A model generated the notes under the pieces. That model did no database searches. It saw only the letters and a program-made list of their open reading frames with translations, and was not told the origin of the DNA. From assembly GCA_021796155.1 (NCBI GenBank), contig JAJYOO010000101.1:1-7692 (forward strand): a stretch of DNA of 7,692 nt, in the 5' to 3' direction. The DNA is from Chloroflexota bacterium. Lineage in GTDB: Bacteria; Chloroflexota; Anaerolineae; Anaerolineales; Villigracilaceae. Positions 1 to 7,692 of this stretch are shown here, piece by piece (positions within the stretch are counted from its first letter, which is position 1; each line of letters begins with the position of its first letter). A program made the position numbers and the translations under genes.

Positions 1-106
1 CTTCGCTCTCGATCCCACGCGAAAGAGCGTCAATCAGAAAACGCTTTAGCTTGGCAAGATCAGAGGAGGAAAAACGAACAGAATTCGGCGATGCAGGCTG
101 GGCCAT
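1..106 (-). CDS. Unknown protein, N-terminal 35 residues only
   Basis: This is the beginning of a gene that runs off the left edge. The ATG is at 106-104, five nucleotides after the stop of the preceding small gene, and a purine-rich AAAGGAA that could serve as ribosome binding site lies in the last codons of that gene, so the two are probably translationally coupled. The visible protein starts MAQPASPNSVRF and continues with a charged, probably helical stretch (SSSDLAKLKRFLIDAL, about residues 13-28). There is no signal peptide or membrane segment in the part that can be seen. No family can be recognised from so few residues. Its position after a CpaE/TadZ-like ATPase makes a secretion or pilus role conceivable, but nothing in the residues shows that. 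Confidence 0.6.
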   Translation of the reverse strand, partial: MAQPASPNSVRFSSSDLAKLKRFLIDALSRGIESE

Positions 107-111
107 GAATG

Positions 112-399
112 TTATTCCTTTGACGTTTCTTCGTCCGGCATGACCCACACAATTTGTGCGCGGCGCACGGCCAGGAAAGGCGCGGTAAATGCAACCTGTG
201 CGTCGGCTCCGAGAATAACCGCGTCCGTCATTGCGAGGAAAAGTTCATCGCGGTCCAATTCATCCTTCAAACGCTCGCCCTGCCGCACGTGGACTTTGCC
301 GCGCACCAATTGATTCGTCGTCTGGATGGTGGCGCGCACCGCGACCTTGGTCACCACATCGGTGAAGAACTTTCCTTTTTCGTCGTATTCAATCGCCAT
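112..399 (-). CDS. Small conserved-looking protein of unknown function (95 aa)
   Basis: A 95-residue soluble protein with no signal peptide or membrane helix. The start ATG (399-397) has an AGAGG ribosome binding site six nucleotides upstream (406-410), and only 20 nucleotides separate it from the stop of the REC-ATPase gene, so it is co-transcribed with the signalling cassette. The sequence alternates short hydrophobic strands and charged turns: a probable strand pair around residues 18-40 (VAVRATIQTT, then GKVHV), a polar loop RLKDELDRDE at 43-52, then FLAMTDAVIL at 54-63 and a final strand with RAQIVWV near 80-86. The pattern 'R-L-x-D-x-L ... F-L-A-x-T-D-A' recalls small beta-rich domains of unknown function that I remember from Anaerolineae and other phyla (possibly the DUF6812 group; recalled, not verified). 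A small beta-barrel adaptor acting with the neighbouring ATPase is a guess. That it is a real gene is well supported by spacing, ribosome binding site and protein-like composition. Confidence 0.82.
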   Translation of the reverse strand: MAIEYDEKGKFFTDVVTKVAVRATIQTTNQLVRGKVHVRQGERLKDELDRDELFLAMTDAVILGADAQVAFTAPFLAVRRAQIVWVMPDEETSKE

Positions 400-419
400 G
401 GAATGCCTCTGCTTTGTAT

Positions 420-1571
420 TTATAACGAACGTAAATGTCTTGCGAGTTCTGCCATCTGACGGGATGTATCTTTCAAGACAATGGATGCCGTGTCATTCGG
501 GAATTTGGTTGTGATCGGTTGATGCTGGTTGTTCGCCAACGCGAAGTTCCCACCGAGATACGGCATGGCTGTTTTGATATCAATGCCGATGATCTTTTCC
601 GCTTCGGCTTTGGTCAATCCTTCCAAACCGACGGCTCGATTCAAAATCGTGAAAACAGATGAAGCCTGCAAGCCCTTGGTCTTCAAATAATCCCAGACCG
701 TTTTCGTAAGCGTGACCGTACTCAAATCGGTGCTGACGATCATCGTAACGAGGTCGGCATTTTCGATCAACGGCAGGCTGATGCGCGAGAGTGAACGTCC
801 AAGATCGAGGAAGACAAAATCGTATGCGAGCCTCAACGATTGGACAATGTCACCGATCTTCCCGACGTTAAGCTGGTTCCCGCTTTCGGGATCGGGCGAA
901 CCCGCCAGCAAATGGAAATGCCAGGCGCTCAATTCAGTCAGGCTTTTGCGGAAGAAATCAGATGTCAATTCTGAAGATGACATTCCCGCAATCGTCACCA
1001 GGTTTTGATCGCCCTCGTAACCGACGATTTCTGCAATCGAGCCGATTGGCAATACCATATCCACAACCACAATGCGCGCCTCCGGTTGATTGGTGGCAAC
1101 ATTCATGGCAATGTTGGAACACAACGATGAAGTGCCGGTCCCGCCTTTGGCGCTCAAAAAAACGATCAACAGGCCGCCGTCTTTCGCCACCGAAACGGAT
1201 GCGCCAGTCAGTCGTCCAATCGCTTCGATCAGAACTGGGATCGCCTGCCCTGTCTTTATCAAATATTCCTTGAAGCCCGCGTCGAGGCAGGCACGAGCGC
1301 GCGATTGTTTTGGATCACTGCTGAGTGCGATCAGCGGCGTTTTGGATGTACGCGCGTCGGACCGCAGACGAAGCGCAAAATCTTCCCCTTTTAAATCAGG
1401 CATCACGGGGTCTATGATGATGACTTCAGGATGATCCCGCCAGGCAGAAACCAAACCTTCCCTGCCTGAGCCAGCCCGCAGAACTTGATAACCCGCTTTG
1501 AGCAAAGCTGCCGAGACATAATTGAGACTCGCAGCGTCTGCATCAACAACTAGGATCTTGTTCCCGGCCAT
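420..1571 (-). CDS. REC-ATPase fusion, CpaE/TadZ-like (degenerate REC domain plus atypical Walker A)
   Basis: A 383-residue two-domain protein. Residues 4-122 form a response-regulator receiver domain: candidate phosphoacceptor D54 (IIIDPVMPD), S84 in the switch position and K106 (EYLIKT). The usual Asp-Asp pair is D10-A11, so one Mg2+-ligand aspartate is missing, and the Pro after the conserved Lys is Thr. Residues about 134-383 are a ParA/MinD-fold ATPase: deviant Walker A at 142-149 reads KGGTGTSS, keeping the signature lysine K142 but with Thr147 where ParA/MinD have the catalytic-loop lysine. Walker A' is around D171 (VVVDM) and Walker B around D256 (FVFLDLG). REC plus lysine-less ParA ATPase is the architecture of CpaE/TadZ, which localise Tad/Flp pilus machinery at the pole; the C-terminal region (MPYLGGNFALANNQHQPI) also fits that group. 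The gene begins eight nucleotides after the response regulator stop, so it is in the same operon. An alternative role is a two-component output ATPase unrelated to pili; no pilus gene lies inside the window. Confidence 0.9.
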   Translation of the reverse strand: MAGNKILVVDADAASLNYVSAALLKAGYQVLRAGSGREGLVSAWRDHPEVIIIDPVMPDLKGEDFALRLRSDARTSKTPLIALSSDPKQSRARACLDAGFKEYLIKTGQAIPVLIEAIGRLTGASVSVAKDGGLLIVFLSAKGGTGTSSLCSNIAMNVATNQPEARIVVVDMVLPIGSIAEIVGYEGDQNLVTIAGMSSSELTSDFFRKSLTELSAWHFHLLAGSPDPESGNQLNVGKIGDIVQSLRLAYDFVFLDLGRSLSRISLPLIENADLVTMIVSTDLSTVTLTKTVWDYLKTKGLQASSVFTILNRAVGLEGLTKAEAEKIIGIDIKTAMPYLGGNFALANNQHQPITTKFPNDTASIVLKDTSRQMAELARHLRSL

Positions 1572-1579
1572 AAAGTATT

Positions 1580-2275
1580 TCAGGCTTCGAGTGGCGGCAT
1601 CAAATATCCAAGCCCTGAACGCGTAACGATATGATGCGGGTTATGAGGATCGGCTTCCAATTTTTGACGCAGGCGTGCAATGCTGACCCACAGGATTTCC
1701 TTGTCGAGTTTGTATTCCGGACCCCAAACGCTGGTCAGCAAATCTTCGGATGTCAGAATCGTTCCGATGTTATGAGCAAACTGCAGGAGCAGCCGATATT
1801 CTGTGGCAGACAGGGAAACAGCCTGGTCGTCCTTCCAGACTTCAGCGCGCGCAAAATCAATTTTTAGATTATTGTGCGTGAAAAAGCGTTCCTGTCCATG
1901 CTCAGTGGGAGGCTGCGCGCGGCGCAGAACAGCACGCACCCGCGCCAAAAGTTCGGTCGCCGAAAAAGGCTTGACGAGGTAGTCGTCCGCTCCGAGGTCC
2001 AGGCCTTTGACGCGATCCTGCTCCTCGCCCTTGGCCGTCAGCATGATGATCGGCACATTGGAGAACTCGCGGATGCGCTGGCAAGCCCCGAAGCCGTCGA
2101 GCCGCGGCATCATAATATCGAGCAGGATCAAATCAACGGGCTGGGCGGAAAACGTGTCCACGGCCTGCATACCGTCCGATGCAGTGATAACGCCGTACCC
2201 CTCTGTTTTCAGATTGGCCTCCAACAAACGGAGGTAGCGAGGTTCGTCATCCACGATCAATATTTTCTTGGACAT
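1580..2275 (-). CDS. OmpR/PhoB-family response regulator transcription factor
   Basis: A 231-residue DNA-binding response regulator. The receiver domain (about residues 3-117) is canonical: acidic pair D9-D10, phosphoacceptor D53 (LILLDIMMP), switch T80 (IIMLTAK) and K102-P103 (DDYLVKPF). After a short linker (PPTEHGQE) comes a winged-helix DNA-binding domain at about 129-228, with LSATEYRLL for the first helix, the recognition-helix segment IARLRQKLE, and the wing HHIVTRSGLGYL. The start is chosen at 2275 because AAGGAGG lies four nucleotides upstream and VDDE falls at the normal distance from the N-terminus; a longer reading frame from 2380 adds 35 residues that only mirror the end of the kinase gene. 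It lies 25 nucleotides downstream of the GAF kinase and eight upstream of the REC-ATPase. It is the obvious phosphoacceptor for one or both adjacent kinases. Its target promoters cannot be read from this window. Confidence 0.96.
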   Translation of the reverse strand: MSKKILIVDDEPRYLRLLEANLKTEGYGVITASDGMQAVDTFSAQPVDLILLDIMMPRLDGFGACQRIREFSNVPIIMLTAKGEEQDRVKGLDLGADDYLVKPFSATELLARVRAVLRRAQPPTEHGQERFFTHNNLKIDFARAEVWKDDQAVSLSATEYRLLLQFAHNIGTILTSEDLLTSVWGPEYKLDKEILWVSIARLRQKLEADPHNPHHIVTRSGLGYLMPPLEA

Positions 2276-2279
2276 GATG

Positions 2280-2286
2280 CCTCCTT
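2280..2286 (-). promoter_or_regulatory. Ribosome binding site of the response regulator
   Basis: On the minus strand AAGGAGG is followed after four nucleotides by ATG at 2275-2273. It is a near-perfect anti-16S match and decides the start of the response regulator in favour of MSKKILIVDDE over the longer in-frame ATG at 2380. It lies in the 25-nucleotide gap after the kinase stop codon. Confidence 0.85.
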
Positions 2287-2300
2287 CACAGAAAACCGGA

Positions 2301-3488
2301 TCACATAGCGGGTTCGATGGGCAGTTCGATAAAGAAGGTTGTGCCTTCGTCCAAAATGGACTCTGCCCAAATCTTACCATGATGCGCGAGAATTATCTGC
2401 TTGCAAATATAAAGTCCCAAGCCGGTACCAGTAACCGTAGCCTGTCCAGGGACGCGATAAAAACGTTCAAAAAGGAACGGAAGATAATCTTCCGGGATGC
2501 CGGGGCCGCGATCGGCAAAGACCACTTTCAAAGTTTTGCCAGCGCGACGAATGCTGATCGCGATGGGCGAATCGGGAGCATACTTCACGGCATTGCTAAA
2601 CAAGTTTTCAAAGACCTGCGACAGCCGCACGCCATCGCCGAGGATGGGCGGGACATTCTCGAAATCAAGTTTTACCTGCAAATCACTGTGATGAGTGTGA
2701 AGCCGCGTAGTGACATCACGGATCAAAGCATCCAATCGCAGTGGCTGGAATTTGAATTGAAGTGTCTTCGTCTGCAAGCGCGCTGACTCGAGCATATTCT
2801 CGATGAGACGAGTCAGGCGGTCAGCCTCATCATCAATGATCGCCAAAAATTCGTGCTGGGTTTTTTCATCCCATTTCGTATCTTGCCGCAGCAGGCTGGT
2901 GCTGTAACCTTTGATAAAACCAAGCGGTGTGCGAAGCTCGTGCGAGATCGTGGAAACAAAATCATCTTGAAGGCGCATTTGCTTCTGCACGGATTCCAAA
3001 TCGGTGCGCGCTTCCTGCAAAGCTTTGGACGCCAGCAGCGACGCGACCGCGGTCGCGATCAGTGCCGCCATGCGGACATGGATCGCGGAATAAGCCGGGC
3101 CGCCGAACCGGACAAAGACCAGCACGCCGCTCAAACGTCCCGCGGTGAACAATGGTAAGCCAATCAAATATGGAAGATCAAGCCGGTCCGTGTTTGGATT
3201 TTGGCCGGGCTCATGCACGATCACTTCCTTCCGACTGACGACTTCGCCTGCAACCCCTTCGCCCCAACTGACATCCGCTTCGGCGTTCTTGCCGCGTCCC
3301 ACCGCACGCGCATAAGCGACATCCAAACCACTGCCAGAATCAAGCACATAGACAGCTACATTGTCATATACAAATTCTTCGCGCAGGGCAGCCAGCAACG
3401 TATCCAGGGCTGCTTTCCAATCGGCCTTTGCATTTACAGCCTGCAGGATGGTATAGAGATAATCGAGCGTCTGCGGATCAACCGACAT
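2301..3488 (-). CDS. GAF-domain sensor histidine kinase (soluble)
   Basis: A 395-residue histidine kinase with no transmembrane helix, hence probably cytosolic. Residues about 20-155 form a GAF-type sensor domain (FVYDNVAVYVL, then WGEGVAGEVV at 75-84 and the strand LSGVLVFVRF at 119-128). A helical linker at about 140-175 leads to the HisKA domain with the H-box ISHELRTPL, phosphorylated residue H183. The HATPase_c domain has the N-box with N299 (NLFSNAVKYAP), G1 box D326-R-G-P-G330, F-box around F340 (FLFERFYR) and G2 box GTGLG at 354-358, so all catalytic elements are present. The ATG (3488-3486) lies one nucleotide after the stop of the upstream kinase and has no clear Shine-Dalgarno of its own, which points to translational coupling. 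The response regulator follows after 25 nucleotides and is the likely partner. The GAF ligand cannot be predicted: no haem- or bilin-binding signature is evident. Confidence 0.95.
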   Translation of the reverse strand: MSVDPQTLDYLYTILQAVNAKADWKAALDTLLAALREEFVYDNVAVYVLDSGSGLDVAYARAVGRGKNAEADVSWGEGVAGEVVSRKEVIVHEPGQNPNTDRLDLPYLIGLPLFTAGRLSGVLVFVRFGGPAYSAIHVRMAALIATAVASLLASKALQEARTDLESVQKQMRLQDDFVSTISHELRTPLGFIKGYSTSLLRQDTKWDEKTQHEFLAIIDDEADRLTRLIENMLESARLQTKTLQFKFQPLRLDALIRDVTTRLHTHHSDLQVKLDFENVPPILGDGVRLSQVFENLFSNAVKYAPDSPIAISIRRAGKTLKVVFADRGPGIPEDYLPFLFERFYRVPGQATVTGTGLGLYICKQIILAHHGKIWAESILDEGTTFFIELPIEPAM

Positions 3489-3489
3489 A

Positions 3490-4542
3490 TTATGTGGAAT
3501 GTTTTTGCTTTTTTTCTTCTGCCACTGCCAGGAGCGGGAACTTGAACGTGGTGCTGCGGCCCTCGATGGAATTTACATCGAGCAGCGAGCCGTGCGCCTC
3601 TACGATCTGACGCACCAGCGAAAGCCCAAGGCCGGTGCCGCCCGCTTTGCGCGTGGATGAACCGTCGAGTTGGTGGAACGGTTCAAAAATTTCACTCAAA
3701 CGGTTCGACGGGATGCCGATGCCGGTATCCGTCACAGAAATCATCACGAGATTTGCGCCTTCTTCCTTCAAACTGACAACGACCCGTCCGCCAGACGGCG
3801 TAAATTTGACCGCGTTATCGAGCAGTTGATTCAATACCCAGCTGATCTTTTCCGGGTCGCCCTGAACGAACGGCAGATTCTCATCGGCAACGACATGCAC
3901 CGTCACGCCGCGCTCGTCCGCTTTTTGAACGGCAGACTTGGCTGCGAGATTTGCAAGACGGCGAATATCGAACGCTTCCTGCTTCATGCTCATCTCGCCG
4001 CGCGATGCCAGCGAGAACATGATCAAATCTTCGATCAAATTCTCCAGCCGGTCGGAGGCTCTTTGGCTGACTTGTAGCGCGTGACGTTGTTCGGATGTCA
4101 ACGGTCCAAGCGAATCCGTCACCATCAATTCAAGATAACCTTTGATGTGAGTCAGCGGCGTCCGCAATTCGTGAGAAATATTTGCGACAAAATTGGCTTT
4201 CATCTGGCTGAGTTCGGAAAGCCGTTCGAGCGCCTCCTGCAATTCCGCCGTCCGCTCCTGGACGCGTTGTTCAAGATTGCGGTTGGCCGCCTGCAACGCG
4301 GAACGCAATTGAATAATCTGTTCGGTGATCGCCTGGTCTAATGTGGAACGTTCGAGAAGTTTCAGCTCAAGAAGAGCCTGGCCGAGCAAATACGTTCTCC
4401 CCTCCGCAATTTTTTCTTGCTGATAGGCCAGCGCTTTTTGCAAATCCAATTCGGTGATATGCCCGCCTCGTACCAACGCTTCGCCAAGCCGCGGTACGAG
4501 CATTTCAGGAGTCAGTTGGGATGATGGCTTTGTACTCGACAT
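3490..4542 (-). CDS. Histidine kinase with N-terminal MshEN-like (putative c-di-GMP) domain
   Basis: A 350-residue soluble kinase. Residues 18-75 hold two tandem 24-residue motifs of the MshEN/GspE N-terminal type (see separate entry). Residues about 76-115 are a strongly charged heptad-like coiled coil (NRNLEQRVQERTAELQEAL and following) typical of signalling helices. The HisKA domain has the H-box ISHELRTPL with H124 as phosphoacceptor. The HATPase_c domain shows N243 in the N-box (QLLDNAVKFTP), the G1 box D272-T-G-I-G276, an F-box at F286 (EIFEPFHQLD) and the G2 box GGTGLGL at 301-307. The core is complete and expected to be active. Start ATG at 4542-4540 is supported by GAGGAG eight nucleotides upstream (4551-4556). 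It follows the amidohydrolase by 44 nucleotides and precedes the GAF kinase by one. No separate regulator is paired with it, so it may share the OmpR-type regulator or the REC-ATPase with the second kinase, or the two kinases may interact. Confidence 0.94.
   Translation of the reverse strand: MSSTKPSSQLTPEMLVPRLGEALVRGGHITELDLQKALAYQQEKIAEGRTYLLGQALLELKLLERSTLDQAITEQIIQLRSALQAANRNLEQRVQERTAELQEALERLSELSQMKANFVANISHELRTPLTHIKGYLELMVTDSLGPLTSEQRHALQVSQRASDRLENLIEDLIMFSLASRGEMSMKQEAFDIRRLANLAAKSAVQKADERGVTVHVVADENLPFVQGDPEKISWVLNQLLDNAVKFTPSGGRVVVSLKEEGANLVMISVTDTGIGIPSNRLSEIFEPFHQLDGSSTRKAGGTGLGLSLVRQIVEAHGSLLDVNSIEGRSTTFKFPLLAVAEEKKQKHST
4318..4491 (-). other. Tandem MshEN-like motifs at the N-terminus of the kinase
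   Basis: These bases encode residues 18-75 of the kinase. Motif 1 (18-41) starts RLGEALVRGG and has R18-L19-G20, L23, V24, G27, I29, L34, L38 and Q41 at the spacing of the published 24-residue c-di-GMP motif of MshE (RLG, hydrophobic 6-7, G10, hydrophobic 12, L17, L21, Q24); only position 11 (His) departs. Motif 2 (52-75) starts LLGQALLELK and keeps L53-G54, L57, L58, L62, L63, L68, I72 and Q75, but has Leu instead of the Arg at position 1 and Lys instead of Gly at position 10. The linker between motifs is 10 residues, longer than the short one in MshE. The fold assignment is fairly safe; ligand binding is inference. Confidence 0.75.
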
Positions 4543-4550
4543 AGGTCGTT

Positions 4551-4556
4551 CTCCTC
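4551..4556 (-). promoter_or_regulatory. Ribosome binding site of the MshEN-like kinase
   Basis: GAGGAG on the minus strand, eight nucleotides before ATG 4542-4540. It fixes the start so that the whole first MshEN-like motif is translated, rather than starting at Met14. It lies in the 44-nucleotide gap after the amidohydrolase; I see no convincing promoter or terminator in that gap. Confidence 0.75.
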
Positions 4557-4586
4557 AAGCTGTAACCACTAATAAAACGCAACCCT

Positions 4587-6164
4587 TCAATTACCGGGCA
4601 AAACCCACTCTCCGCCGACCATTGTAGCAGAAGATTGAAAATCTTTCACTTCCTGCGGATCGGATTTGAACGGGTCTTTTTCCAGGACGATCAAATCGGC
4701 GAGGAAACCCGGGGCCAATTTGCCCTGACGGTTTTCCGCGTACGCCGCGTACGCCGCGCCGGTCGTAAATCCTTCGATCGCTTCCTGCATCGAAAGCCGC
4801 TGTTCAGGATGCCAACCTTCGGGATTCGGCGAACCGTCCGCACGTCGGCGCGTGACCGCCGCGTGGATTCCCCAAAACGGATTCGGCGACTCGACCGGTG
4901 CGTCTGAGCCAAACGCAACACGCGCGCCCGCGTCGAGTTGAGTCCGCCAGGCATAAGCCAGCGACGAACGCGCACCCCAATATTTGTCAGCCATCAACAT
5001 GTCAGATGTGGCATGAATCGGCTGCATGGATGCGATCACATTTAATTTCGCAAGCCGCGCCGCGTCATCAAGATGCAAAACTTGTACATGTTCAATGCGA
5101 TGTCGCAAATGCGGCAAGCCTTTTTCGGTTTCGTAAGCGCGCAACTGCTCGTATGCATCCAATACTTCATGATTGGCGCGGTCGCCGATGGCATGGACGG
5201 TCATGCCAAGGCCAACATCCGCGGCGTGACGACCATATTCAAAAAGTTGTTCGCCATCCATGTTGAGAATGCCTTTGTTTTCCGGCTCGCCATCGTACGG
5301 TTGGAACATCGCCGCTGTGCGCGGGCCAAGCGCGCCATCCATAAAAGCTTTGACGGAACCAATGCGAAGCCAATCGTCACCGAAGCCAGTGCGGAGTCCA
5401 AGTTCAAAAGCCTGGTTGAGCAATTCAACAGGAAGATTTTTCGTCACGCGCAACTTCAACTTGTTTTGCAAATGTAGAATTTGTAAAGCCATGAACGAAT
5501 CGCGGCGGTCAAAATCGTGGACGCTTGTCAAGCCCATCTTCCATAAAATTGGCTGGGCCCTTTCAATAGCGTTGGCAATTTCACCAACAGTTGGCGCAGG
5601 CAGAACACGATTGATCAATTCCATCGCGGACTCGAGCAGGATTCCGGTCAAAGCACCGCGTGAATCACGTTGGAGCTGGCCGTTGACCGGGTCCGGCGAA
5701 GAAGCGGTGATGTCAGCCAACTTCAACGCAGCCGAATTTGCCCATCCAGCATGTAAAGATTTTGCTGTTAGATAAACTGGATTGTTTGGTGAAATTTGAT
5801 CGAGCGCGGATAACTCCGGCCAGCCGCCCCACACATTTTGATTCCAGCCGTGACCTAAAATCCATTCGCAGGGCTTTGCTTTTTGCACGCGCTCCTTCAC
5901 GCGCCGCAAACAATCATCGAGGGTGTCGGTTTCGCAATCAACTTTTTGCAGGCCGAGCGAATAATGTTGAAGATGCAAATGCGCGTCGGTGAGGCCGGGC
6001 AAAACAATTCGACCGCGTAAATCTTCTTTCTCTGCGCGGTCGAATTCCTTCAGAAGATCATCGCCGCCGATGGCGATAACTTCGTCATGATCAATGGCGA
6101 TGGCTGACGCGGTTGGTTTTGATTTATCAAGTGTATAAATTTTTGCGTTGTAAAGAATCTTCAT
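4587..6164 (-). CDS. Metal-dependent amidohydrolase, YtcJ/amidohydrolase_3 type
   Basis: A 525-residue hydrolase of the amidohydrolase superfamily, close to the usual length for the YtcJ-like group. The N-terminal beta-sandwich segment (MKILYNAKIYTLD, AIAIDHDEVIAIGG) leads to the metal motif D60-A-H62-L-H64. Further ligand candidates are K272 in SVKAFMDGALG (the lysine that is carbamylated in related enzymes), H324 in TVHAIGDRAN, H359 in HRIEHVQVL and D421 in FGSDAPVE. The C-terminal part GKLAPGFLADLIVLEKDPF is the returning beta-sandwich typical of this family. All the key residues are present, so an active cytosolic hydrolase acting on an amide, urea-like or cyclic amide bond is likely, but the substrate cannot be named. 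There is no signal peptide. It begins 36 nucleotides after parB with only a weak ribosome binding site and ends 44 before the kinase genes, so it may be co-transcribed with either side. No functional link to segregation or signalling is apparent. Confidence 0.93.
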   Translation of the reverse strand: MKILYNAKIYTLDKSKPTASAIAIDHDEVIAIGGDDLLKEFDRAEKEDLRGRIVLPGLTDAHLHLQHYSLGLQKVDCETDTLDDCLRRVKERVQKAKPCEWILGHGWNQNVWGGWPELSALDQISPNNPVYLTAKSLHAGWANSAALKLADITASSPDPVNGQLQRDSRGALTGILLESAMELINRVLPAPTVGEIANAIERAQPILWKMGLTSVHDFDRRDSFMALQILHLQNKLKLRVTKNLPVELLNQAFELGLRTGFGDDWLRIGSVKAFMDGALGPRTAAMFQPYDGEPENKGILNMDGEQLFEYGRHAADVGLGMTVHAIGDRANHEVLDAYEQLRAYETEKGLPHLRHRIEHVQVLHLDDAARLAKLNVIASMQPIHATSDMLMADKYWGARSSLAYAWRTQLDAGARVAFGSDAPVESPNPFWGIHAAVTRRRADGSPNPEGWHPEQRLSMQEAIEGFTTGAAYAAYAENRQGKLAPGFLADLIVLEKDPFKSDPQEVKDFQSSATMVGGEWVLPGN

Positions 6165-6200
6165 AATTTCAGTGATGGCGCGACGCGTTGCTAAACGAGT

Positions 6201-7046
6201 TTATAAAAGTTTTTCGAGCAAGGCATCCAGTTCTTCCTCCGAATAATAATGGATGGTGACCGTCCCGCCTTTTTTGCCGTGCTTCAATGCCACTTTCGTC
6301 CCGAGGCTGGCGCGCAAGCGGCGTTCGATGTCGCTCACATTCGGATTTCGGGCCGGTTTCTTTTTTGACGCGGGTTTCTGCCCTCCGAGTTTTCGCGCCA
6401 ACGCTTCGGCTTGACGGACACTCAAATCGAGATTAAGAATCGTTCGCAATGCAGCTTCCTGCGCCTTTGTAGATGTCAGCGCAAGCAAGGCGCGCGCGTG
6501 ACCTTCGCTGATTTTTCCATCTACTAGGGCCTGTTTCACCGCAGACGATGCATCGAGCAGACGAATCGTATTGGTCACAGCCACGCGGCTTTTGCCAACG
6601 CTCGTAGCAATCTTCTCGTGTGACATTCCAAATTCTTTGGCAAGGTGTTGGAATGCCTCGGCTTCTTCGATTGCATTCAAATCCGCGCGCTGGACGTTTT
6701 CGATCAACGCCAATTCAAGCAATTGCTGATCACTTGCATTGCGAACAACAACCGGGACGATCTTCAAACCAGCGCGGCGCGCGGCTTGCCAGCGTCGTTC
6801 GCCCGCGATCAATGTATAAGTTCCGTTCGATGCAGGCGAAACAATTAGCGGCTGGATCACGCCGTGTTCACGAATGGATGTGGCCAATTCTTCCAGTTCA
6901 TTTTCCTTGAATGATTGGCGCGGTTGGCGCGGGTTGCGCTGGATCGAATCGATGGCGACTTGCGCCACGCCGCCTTCGACCGCTGCGGACGATCCGCCGG
7001 GGATGAGTGCATCGAGTCCTTTTCCGAGTCCTGAACGTGGAGGCAT
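6201..7046 (-). CDS. parB: Chromosome-partitioning protein ParB (Spo0J/Noc superfamily)
   Basis: A 281-residue ParB, normal length. The N-terminus MPPRSGLGKGLDALIP is the conserved short segment through which chromosomal ParB proteins contact ParA. The CTP-binding/N-terminal domain covers about residues 27-125: Box I N38-P-R-Q-P-R43, the GERRWQAARRAG motif at 82-93, and ENVQRADLN at 116-124. The helix-turn-helix for parS follows (about 139-164, MSHEKIATSVGKSRVAVTNT), then a helical region and a Lys-rich linker near 226-236, and a short C-terminal dimerisation domain ending EEELDALLEKLL. The start is set at 7046 by AAGGAG seven nucleotides upstream; an in-frame ATG at 7091 would translate the intergenic palindrome and has no such site. 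ParB spreads as a clamp around parS and works with ParA to move the origin region. No parS-like site was found in the window. The gene is 57 nucleotides from parA. Confidence 0.97.
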   Translation of the reverse strand: MPPRSGLGKGLDALIPGGSSAAVEGGVAQVAIDSIQRNPRQPRQSFKENELEELATSIREHGVIQPLIVSPASNGTYTLIAGERRWQAARRAGLKIVPVVVRNASDQQLLELALIENVQRADLNAIEEAEAFQHLAKEFGMSHEKIATSVGKSRVAVTNTIRLLDASSAVKQALVDGKISEGHARALLALTSTKAQEAALRTILNLDLSVRQAEALARKLGGQKPASKKKPARNPNVSDIERRLRASLGTKVALKHGKKGGTVTIHYYSEEELDALLEKLL

Positions 7047-7053
7047 GAATATT

Positions 7054-7059
7054 CTCCTT
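7054..7059 (-). promoter_or_regulatory. Ribosome binding site of parB
   Basis: AAGGAG on the minus strand, seven nucleotides before ATG 7046-7044. It places the start at MPPRSGLGKG, which agrees with the conserved ParB N-terminus, and excludes the ATG at 7091 inside the palindrome. Confidence 0.85.
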
Positions 7060-7076
7060 ATCCAAACAATTGCAAT

Positions 7077-7100
7077 GTAGGGGCGATGCATCGCCCCTAC
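7077..7100. repeat. Perfect 24-bp palindrome in the parA-parB gap
   Basis: The arm GTAGGGGCGATG is followed directly by its exact reverse complement CATCGCCCCTAC with no spacer; the bases next outside (T7076, G7101) no longer pair. It fills almost half of the 57-base gap between parA and parB. As RNA it would form a GC-rich hairpin with a very tight loop, but no T-run follows in the direction of transcription (the next minus-strand bases are ATTGCAATTG), so it is not a classical intrinsic terminator. It is unlike the parS consensus, which has a CACGTG core. I recall very similar 'GTAGGGGCGATGCATCGCCC' units as dispersed intergenic repeats in Chloroflexota and cyanobacteria; this is memory, not a search. 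Confidence 0.85.
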
Positions 7101-7103
7101 GGA

Positions 7104-7692
7104 TTATTGATTATGAATTCTTATTCCATCGCCTTTGAGCAATTCTTTGGTCAATGCTTCGTACGCCTGCGCACCCACGGATGAAGGCGCATACACCGAA
7201 ATTGGAAGTCCATACGAAGGCGCTTCTGCAAGACGAACGCTGCGCGGCACGACCGATTTGAAAACCTGTCCGGGAAAATGGCGATTGACTTCCTTGACCA
7301 CATCGGTCGCGAGATTCGTCCGCGGGTCGAACATTGTCAGAACAACGCCGCGCACTTTCAATTCCGGGAAAAGAGCCGAGCGGACGCGTTGAATCGTCTG
7401 CGTGAGTTGGCCGAGTCCTTCGAGCGCGAGATATTCACATTGGACGGGAACCAGCACGCCGTCCCGCGCGGCAACCAATCCATTGACGGTCAACAAACCA
7501 AGCGATGGCGGGCAATCAATCAAGACGTAATCATAGCGATCAGCAATTGGATCAACAGCTCGTTTGAGACGCATCTCGCGCGCCAACTCTTCGACCAGTT
7601 CCACTTCCGCACCCGCCAGTGAGGGAGACGAAGGCAAAAGTGAAAGTTGAAGGCGCTCATTCAGAAGGAAGTCAATCGCCATTTTCCCGGAC
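7104..7692 (-). CDS. parA: Chromosome-partitioning ATPase ParA/Soj, C-terminal part
   Basis: The C-terminal two thirds or so of a ParA-family ATPase, cut by the right edge. The reading frame stays open to base 7692, upstream of the first visible ATG at 7682 (codons read S-G-K-M), so that Met is internal and the true start, with the Walker A and A' motifs, lies outside. Visible elements are LLPSSPSLAGAEVELVEEL, the conserved segment before Walker B; Walker B YDYVLIDCPPSLGLLTVNG with the Asp codon at 7517-7515; VVLTMFDPRTNLATDVVKEV; and VPRSVRLAEAPSYGLPISVY, the nucleotide-contacting C-terminal signature of Soj-like chromosomal ParA proteins. The protein binds DNA as an ATP dimer, is stimulated by ParB, and drives origin segregation. 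It is followed by parB on the same strand, the usual order for this pair. Confidence 0.95.
   Translation of the reverse strand, partial: SGKMAIDFLLNERLQLSLLPSSPSLAGAEVELVEELAREMRLKRAVDPIADRYDYVLIDCPPSLGLLTVNGLVAARDGVLVPVQCEYLALEGLGQLTQTIQRVRSALFPELKVRGVVLTMFDPRTNLATDVVKEVNRHFPGQVFKSVVPRSVRLAEAPSYGLPISVYAPSSVGAQAYEALTKELLKGDGIRIHNQ

Follow-up and report, generated by a model that had tools for sequence, protein, structure and literature searches.

An MshEN_N Domain on a Cytoplasmic Histidine Kinase of the Chloroflexota: a Candidate c-di-GMP Receptor in a Conserved Two-Component Operon

Introduction

The closest described counterparts of the protein examined here are the MshEN domain of the MshE ATPase of Vibrio cholerae (PDB 5HTL; PMC5013675) and the GSPII-B domain of the PilF ATPase of Thermus thermophilus (PDB 8PDK; PMC11731258), both of which bind cyclic diguanylate (c-di-GMP), a signal molecule of biofilms. 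The locus of interest lies in a 7,692-nt stretch of DNA from a Chloroflexota genome (contig JAJYOO010000101.1, positions 1 to 7,692; hereafter the window) and encodes a histidine kinase whose N-terminus is the N-terminal subdomain (MshEN_N) of such a domain, a type best known from pilus motor proteins. The explanation advanced here, which we regard as likely, is that the kinase serves as a receptor of c-di-GMP in the cytoplasm, gated by this ligand and embedded in a two-component operon.

The two motifs of PilF GSPII-B start with Lys and Leu, and the domain binds c-di-GMP with a dissociation constant (KD) of 6 nM (Neissner and colleagues, PMC11731258), an observation from 2024 with which the residues accepted at the first motif position were extended to R/K/L. 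The L196R substitution weakens binding to 23 nM, K167L tightens it to 2 nM, and L166G, which disrupts the initial turn of helix 1 immediately ahead of motif 1, tightens it to 3 nM; without the C-terminal subdomain (MshEN_C), which adds about ninefold affinity, the N-subdomain has a KD of 54 nM (PMC11731258). The N-subdomain of MshE binds at 0.35 µM (PMC5013675). In the non-binding GSPII-A domain of PilF, three changes restored measurable binding and a fourth gave high affinity, and a passage of the same study suggests that Ile is tolerated at two of the Leu positions (PMC12002112).

MshEN domains have also been reported in fusion with other signalling proteins, including CheA, REC, HD-GYP, and CheX (Wang 2016, PMC5013675). 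Separately, several two-component kinases are known to bind c-di-GMP through other domains: CckA of Caulobacter, which is shifted to phosphatase activity, through a PAS domain, SgmT of Myxococcus, which is spatially sequestered, through a GGDEF domain (PMC3509222, PMC4853435), and, according to a review passage, ShkA of Caulobacter through a pseudo-receiver.

Results

An MshEN_N Domain Fused to a HisKA Kinase

The kinase is a cytoplasmic HisKA/HATPase_c protein with an N-terminal MshEN_N domain, and its parts are distributed as follows.

3490–4542, minus strand: histidine kinase of 350 amino acids, ordered MshEN_N, signalling helix, HisKA, HATPase_c (open reading frame, Pfam, and AlphaFold model)
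4492–4494, minus strand: Pro17, helix breaker directly before motif 1 (orthologue conservation)
4420–4491, minus strand: MshEN motif 1, residues 18–41, with R18, L19, G20, G27, L34, L38, and Q41 (sequence and orthologue conservation)
4318–4389, minus strand: MshEN motif 2, residues 52–75, with L52, L53, G54, K61, L68, I72, and Q75, and a Leu-type position 1 (sequence and conservation)
4198–4317, minus strand: signalling helix (S-helix) with ERT signature, residues 76–115
4012–4200, minus strand: HisKA (dimerization and histidine phosphotransfer, DHp) domain, residues 115–177, with phospho-acceptor His124 (Pfam)
3535–3861, minus strand: HATPase_c catalytic domain, residues 228–336 (Pfam)

The catalytic half of the protein is conventional. 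It matches HisKA (E-value 3.1e-19) and HATPase_c (1.5e-27), comprising a DHp domain with the phospho-acceptor His, present in 67 of 67 orthologues, and a HATPase_c domain with conserved N, G1, and G2 box residues. No transmembrane segment was found in the kinase, the highest mean hydropathy over 19 residues being 0.91. Two orthologues (L035 and L036) carry an additional zinc-ribbon-like stretch ahead of the MshEN_N domain, matched by Pfam Zn_ribbon_3 at 4.8e-5 in L036 and recognized by eye in L035.

The N-terminal region was compared with the consensus (R/K/L)LGxx(LVI)(LVI)xxG(LVI)(LVI)xxxxLxxxLxxQ, of which it holds two imperfect 24-residue copies in tandem. When scored over the 11 specified positions, with R/K/L permitted at position 1, motif 1 (His at position 11) reaches 10/11 and motif 2 reaches 9/11, yielding 19/22 for the pair. 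A preliminary description of this DNA had placed two such motifs at 4318–4491, and residues 18–75 map exactly there (4491–4318). The near completeness that it ascribed to motif 1 is confirmed by the presence of R18, L19, G20, G27, L34, L38, and Q41, and its reading of motif 2 as devoid of the Arg at position 1 (L52) and of the Gly at position 10 (K61) is likewise correct, with an additional deviation at position 21, which is Ile and not Leu. The spacing of MshE, in turn, holds inside each motif but not between the two, which are separated by 10 residues here and by 5 in MshE.

Profile comparison matches the N-terminal region to PilF (2.9e-15), MshE (1.7e-7), and PilB (2.3e-7). Structure prediction recovers the four-helix bundle of MshEN_N, and the top 14 PDB folds that match the modelled region are all of the MshEN type. 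In the full-length AlphaFold model of the kinase (predicted local distance difference test, pLDDT, 85.8), a single unbroken helix (residues 65–141) bears L68, I72, and Q75, continues as a coiled coil, and ends as the phospho-acceptor helix. The C-terminal alpha/beta subdomain of full MshEN domains is not found, as the motif 2 helix passes directly into the coiled coil. It could be argued that the resemblance to MshEN is fortuitous and that this cytoplasmic histidine kinase simply starts with an ordinary helical leader, given that Pfam is silent over it and that matches from single sequences are weak. This is highly improbable, however: none of 3,000 shuffles of the first 110 residues attains the pair score (best shuffle, 14), the contact positions are conserved across 67 sequences, the retrieved folds are uniform, and the profile matches to MshE and PilF are refuting unless they are composition artefacts.

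The silence of Pfam deserves closer attention, since a match to its MshEN model had been put forward as a check on the domain assignment. The window protein yields no PF05157 match at E up to 1, and does not reach the curated cut-off of that family, a result that we judge to be a false negative and not a refutation. In the PF05157-positive protein of one genome (G015), glycosyltransferase-like as judged by eye (L109), the six matched stretches start after the motifs, with an RLG/KLG motif filling the 25 residues before two of them. Because the model covers the subdomain downstream of the c-di-GMP motifs, it is the wrong test for the N-subdomain, and it was rejected as the deciding one. For the same reason, the detection of PF05157 in only one of 25 genomes does not prove that the other 24 lack MshEN_N, and further MshEN_N domains on non-ATPase proteins may have been overlooked. 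None of 190 listed homologues bears an MshEN label in precomputed Pfam domains, nearly all being labelled HisKA and/or HATPase_c only. DUF4388 (PF14332) matches 22 of 48 members weakly (best 0.00035), covering part of the MshEN region under its cut-off in the examples inspected, and was set aside as a distant resemblance of helical repeats. An MshEN_N profile (A2), the better test, was run against 12 genomes and gave 15 matches, corresponding to 12 MshEN_N kinases, two GAF proteins, and one CheA.

Conservation of the Motifs

Conservation was assessed on 67 orthologues: the window protein, 47 loci, and 19 further sequences found by whole-genome profile searches. Four of an initial 51 loci (L048–L051), which match later parts of the query only, were excluded before counting. 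The 47 loci were found partly by peptide patterns, so that some ascertainment bias is possible; because these patterns lay within the motifs, conservation was recounted on the 19 further orthologues. The recount upheld the result, with the single exception of one Arg at motif 2 position 1, absent in the first 48; the profiles behind these 19 sequences also contain the motifs, so that the bias is reduced and not removed. Over 48 sequences (the window protein and the 47 loci), conservation within residues 14–79 is higher at the motif positions than elsewhere (mean entropy 0.85 vs. 1.74 bits; permutation p = 0.00026).

In motif 1, position 1 is Arg in 63 and Lys in 4 of the 67 orthologues and position 2 is Leu in 54, G3 is invariant, and G10 (58), L17, L21, and Q24 (66 each) are likewise maintained; a Pro precedes the motif in 63. 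Motif 2 starts with Leu in 52, Met in 9, Gln and Val in 2 each, and Phe and Arg in 1 each; position 2 is Leu in 58, G3 is again invariant, and L17 (64) and Q24 (62) are well conserved. The proposed survey of homologues is hence borne out for the contact residues, save at two places in motif 2: the turn Gly at position 10 is loose (Gly in 25, Lys in 19, Asn in 17), and position 21 is Ile in 38 and Val in 29. The gap between motifs is variable, spanning 10 residues in 56 orthologues, 11 in 8, and 6, 9, and 13 in one each.

Expected Binding of c-di-GMP

The preliminary description regarded motif 2 as half-degenerate and asked whether binding is retained. The first part of this assessment does not stand: Leu at position 1 is a known high-affinity variant, that of PilF GSPII-B (PMC11731258), and motif 2 is therefore not degenerate in a way that argues against binding. 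Furthermore, the window protein has none of the four non-binding residues of GSPII-A, which, together with its binding-type residues, makes c-di-GMP binding the expected outcome. Pro17 sits where the helix break of PilF L166G lies. By analogy with these systems, the domain very likely binds c-di-GMP, with an affinity that is probably sub-micromolar. The prediction is tempered by the Lys at motif 2 position 10, a residue that the parts of the PilF and GSPII-A work consulted do not cover (PMC11731258, PMC12002112).

A Conserved Two-Component Operon

Eight genes are packed tightly on the minus strand of the window, according to the open reading frame list and Pfam. Besides the MshEN_N kinase, they are the following.

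7104 to window edge, minus strand: ParA-like gene
6201–7091, minus strand: ParB gene
4587–6164, minus strand: amidohydrolase gene
2301–3488, minus strand: second histidine kinase, starting 1 bp downstream of the MshEN_N kinase, with GAF domain (Pfam GAF_2, 6.6e-12), HisKA, and HATPase_c
1580–2380, minus strand: OmpR-type response regulator, REC and Trans_reg_C (Pfam); its true start is probably near 2275
420–1571, minus strand: REC and CpaE/MinD-like ATPase (Pfam Response_reg, 1.4e-13; AAA_31, sub-threshold)
112–399, minus strand: DUF6812 protein (Pfam PF20660, 5.8e-14)

The signalling core of this arrangement is conserved. Of 44 testable loci, 42 have the GAF kinase as the next gene, and 39 of 41 have the OmpR-type regulator, with the same two exceptions (L032 and L036). 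The idea that the GAF kinase has lost its phospho-acceptor was considered and rejected, since the alignment shows the H-box His in 44/44 sequences, window included; the phospho-Asp of the regulator is present in 40/40, window included. A double helix-turn-helix protein occurs in 35 of 38 testable loci, and DUF6812 co-occurs with a TadA-like ATPase in the same 27 of 38; in the window, this ATPase would fall beyond the edge. Its best NCBIfam match is TadA (338 bits vs. a cut-off of 373), and no TadA-like ATPase is found among the 15 MshEN_N profile matches in 12 genomes. The REC-CpaE protein, which matches the NCBIfam CpaE homologue TIGR03815 at 2.8e-11, under the family cut-off, is present in 21 of 47 loci, a count that does not allow for contig ends; an alternative count of 24 of 38 testable loci was not used, as it may include cross-matches to the REC domain of the regulator. 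The amidohydrolase (29/42 testable loci), ParB (31/40), and ParA (31/40) have no evident link to the signal. The chromosome-partition genes parA and parB (6201–7691 in the window) lie upstream of the signalling genes in 31 of the 40 loci that could be tested. A scan of the window and six loci found no riboswitch that reaches the gathering threshold.

Among the genomes compared, the nearest relatives are Chloroflexota (Anaerolineae and others), nearly all of them metagenome assemblies, and the closest locus encodes a kinase 92% identical to that of the window. One orthologue (L027) comes from the cultured Leptolinea tardivitalis. A full-length MshEN_N kinase is found in at least 10 of 199 genomes of the class (16 matched, six in the kinase part only) and in 23 of 350 genomes of the phylum (of 60 with a match to the N-terminal profile, the remaining 37 matched more weakly). 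One homologue (P0128) is named by its source as coming from a Bacteroidota metagenome-assembled genome, which would represent contamination or a transfer outside the Chloroflexota. PilZ is found in 22 of 25 host genomes of the 47 loci; the closest relative (G001, possibly incomplete) is one of the three without a match.

The pilus-type genes of the operon lend some weight to the notion of a repurposed MshEN fold that serves for docking without a ligand and brings the kinase, for example, to the GAF kinase or a pilus complex. PilF GSPII-A, a proposed landing pad (PMC12002112), sets a precedent for such a role, and motif 2 deviates at positions 10 and 21. Nonetheless, the positions whose change destroys binding in GSPII-A are of the binding type here and rank among the most conserved of the domain (G3, 67/67 in both motifs; Q24, 66/67 and 62/67), and GGDEF proteins are encoded in 25 of 25 host genomes. 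We consider such a docking role improbable, and retain c-di-GMP reception as the preferred reading.

A Proposed Model for Ligand Gating

The connection between the bundle and the kinase core is strictly maintained. The motif 2 Gln is separated from His124 by exactly 48 residues in 67 of 67 orthologues, and the signalling helix carries the ERT signature in 52, another xRT in 14, and EHS in one. In PilF, Gln218, the equivalent of the motif 2 Gln, is flexible without ligand (PMC11731258).

In the proposed model, the first 75 residues would form a stand-alone MshEN_N four-helix bundle holding one c-di-GMP between both motifs, by analogy with MshE and PilF. Guanine 1 would be sandwiched by R18 and the L34/L38/L53 cluster and guanine 2 by L52 and the L19/L68/I72 cluster, with Q41 and Q75 contacting the phosphates and the backbone at G20 and G54 contacting the Hoogsteen edges. 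The fourth helix of the bundle (L68, I72, Q75) would run without interruption through the ERT signalling helix into the His124 helix, so that a ligand clamped at its top could order the top of the signalling helix and alter how the two signalling helices of the dimer pack against each other, shifting the balance between kinase and phosphatase in either direction. The output partner is likely to be the OmpR-type regulator encoded two genes downstream, which would be common to the GAF kinase and whose plausible targets are pilus and other operon genes.

The same features that predict tight binding allow for a different role of the ligand, in which c-di-GMP is permanently bound as a structural cofactor of the kinase dimer and the signal sensed is a partner protein or the GAF kinase. 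Both the Leu at position 1 and the helix breaker before motif 1 indicate high affinity, and for GSPII-B, whose KD lies below cellular c-di-GMP levels, the authors of the PilF study likewise bring up this possibility (PMC11731258). On the other hand, the kinase lacks the MshEN_C subdomain to which PilF owes its ninefold gain, so its affinity may be weaker, motif 2 conserves its turn Gly poorly, and a helix that reaches the phospho-acceptor unbroken and at constant length points to signalling. A permanently loaded domain is hence unlikely, and c-di-GMP binding probably gates the kinase.

Discussion

The assignment of the N-terminus to MshEN_N on a HisKA kinase, first made from motif spacing, is supported by profile, predicted fold, contact-residue conservation, and intact catalytic boxes. 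If binding is confirmed, c-di-GMP would act through this family directly on a two-component transcription switch in the Chloroflexota, and the family would be a simple system in which to study how a small bundle atop an S-helix gates a kinase. The fixed register would offer a clean model for control of a kinase by a ligand at the top of its signalling helix, and the kinase family gains a concrete candidate ligand. A broader and tentative proposal, which we consider possible rather than probable, is that the Anaerolineae and their relatives in the Chloroflexota have transferred c-di-GMP sensing from the pilus motor to the control of transcription. A stand-alone, Leu-type, high-affinity MshEN_N domain at fixed register on a HisKA kinase would then gate a system of two kinases and one OmpR-type regulator, integrating c-di-GMP with a GAF-sensed cue and governing a Tad-type pilus operon whose ATPase lacks MshEN_N.

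MshEN_N-like stretches occur in other proteins as well. A CheA protein (L082:193–2538, minus strand; Hpt, P2, dimerization, HATPase, and CheW domains) carries one at residues 286–346, directly before the dimerization domain. Two proteins truncated by the ends of their loci (L080:1210–3258 and L081:1459–3246) have MshEN_N followed by GAF domains, in a sister architecture. A 451-residue Chloroflexota protein (L106:439–1791, minus strand) combines such a stretch at residues 39–97 with a DivIVA domain at 322–422, which may give a cell-pole or division protein a c-di-GMP input. Four Chloroflexota proteins of about 250–300 residues (L102, L104, L107, and L108) have up to three such stretches towards the C-terminus; L102, the one scanned against Pfam, has no clear domain and weak matches to DUF4388 and FumaraseC_C.

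As far as literature searches go, MshEN_N on a HisKA kinase is new, while MshEN on signalling proteins and other c-di-GMP-binding kinases are already known. Searches for MshEN or T2SSE_N together with histidine kinase or Chloroflex found this architecture undescribed in titles and the starts of abstracts, although the supplementary table of Wang 2016, not covered, might list one; the terms "histidine kinase" and "HisKA" are absent from the parts of its main text consulted (PMC5013675). Searches of the c-di-GMP literature with Chloroflexi, histidine kinase, and pilus returned no work on this subject by title.

The protein can hence be placed among four groups of known systems. It resembles S-helix proteins in having an ERT coiled coil between an input domain and a histidine kinase, but the portion of that work consulted does not list MshEN as an upstream partner (PMC1592074). 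As in CckA, ShkA, and SgmT, c-di-GMP is predicted to act directly on a two-component kinase, through MshEN instead of the input domains of those proteins. Like the fusions of Wang 2016 (PMC5013675), it joins the domain, a portable c-di-GMP input, to a phosphotransfer protein, here a HisKA two-component kinase of the classical kind that has an S-helix. Lastly, MshE and PilF GSPII-B share with the kinase the two 24-residue motifs, the four-helix bundle, the helix order, and the contact residues, PilF GSPII-B also sharing the Leu at motif 2 position 1. Unlike in these ATPases, the domain of the kinase has no C-terminal alpha/beta subdomain and a gap of 10 residues in place of 5, and it sits not on a pilus or secretion ATPase but on a histidine kinase, with its last helix extending into the coiled coil.
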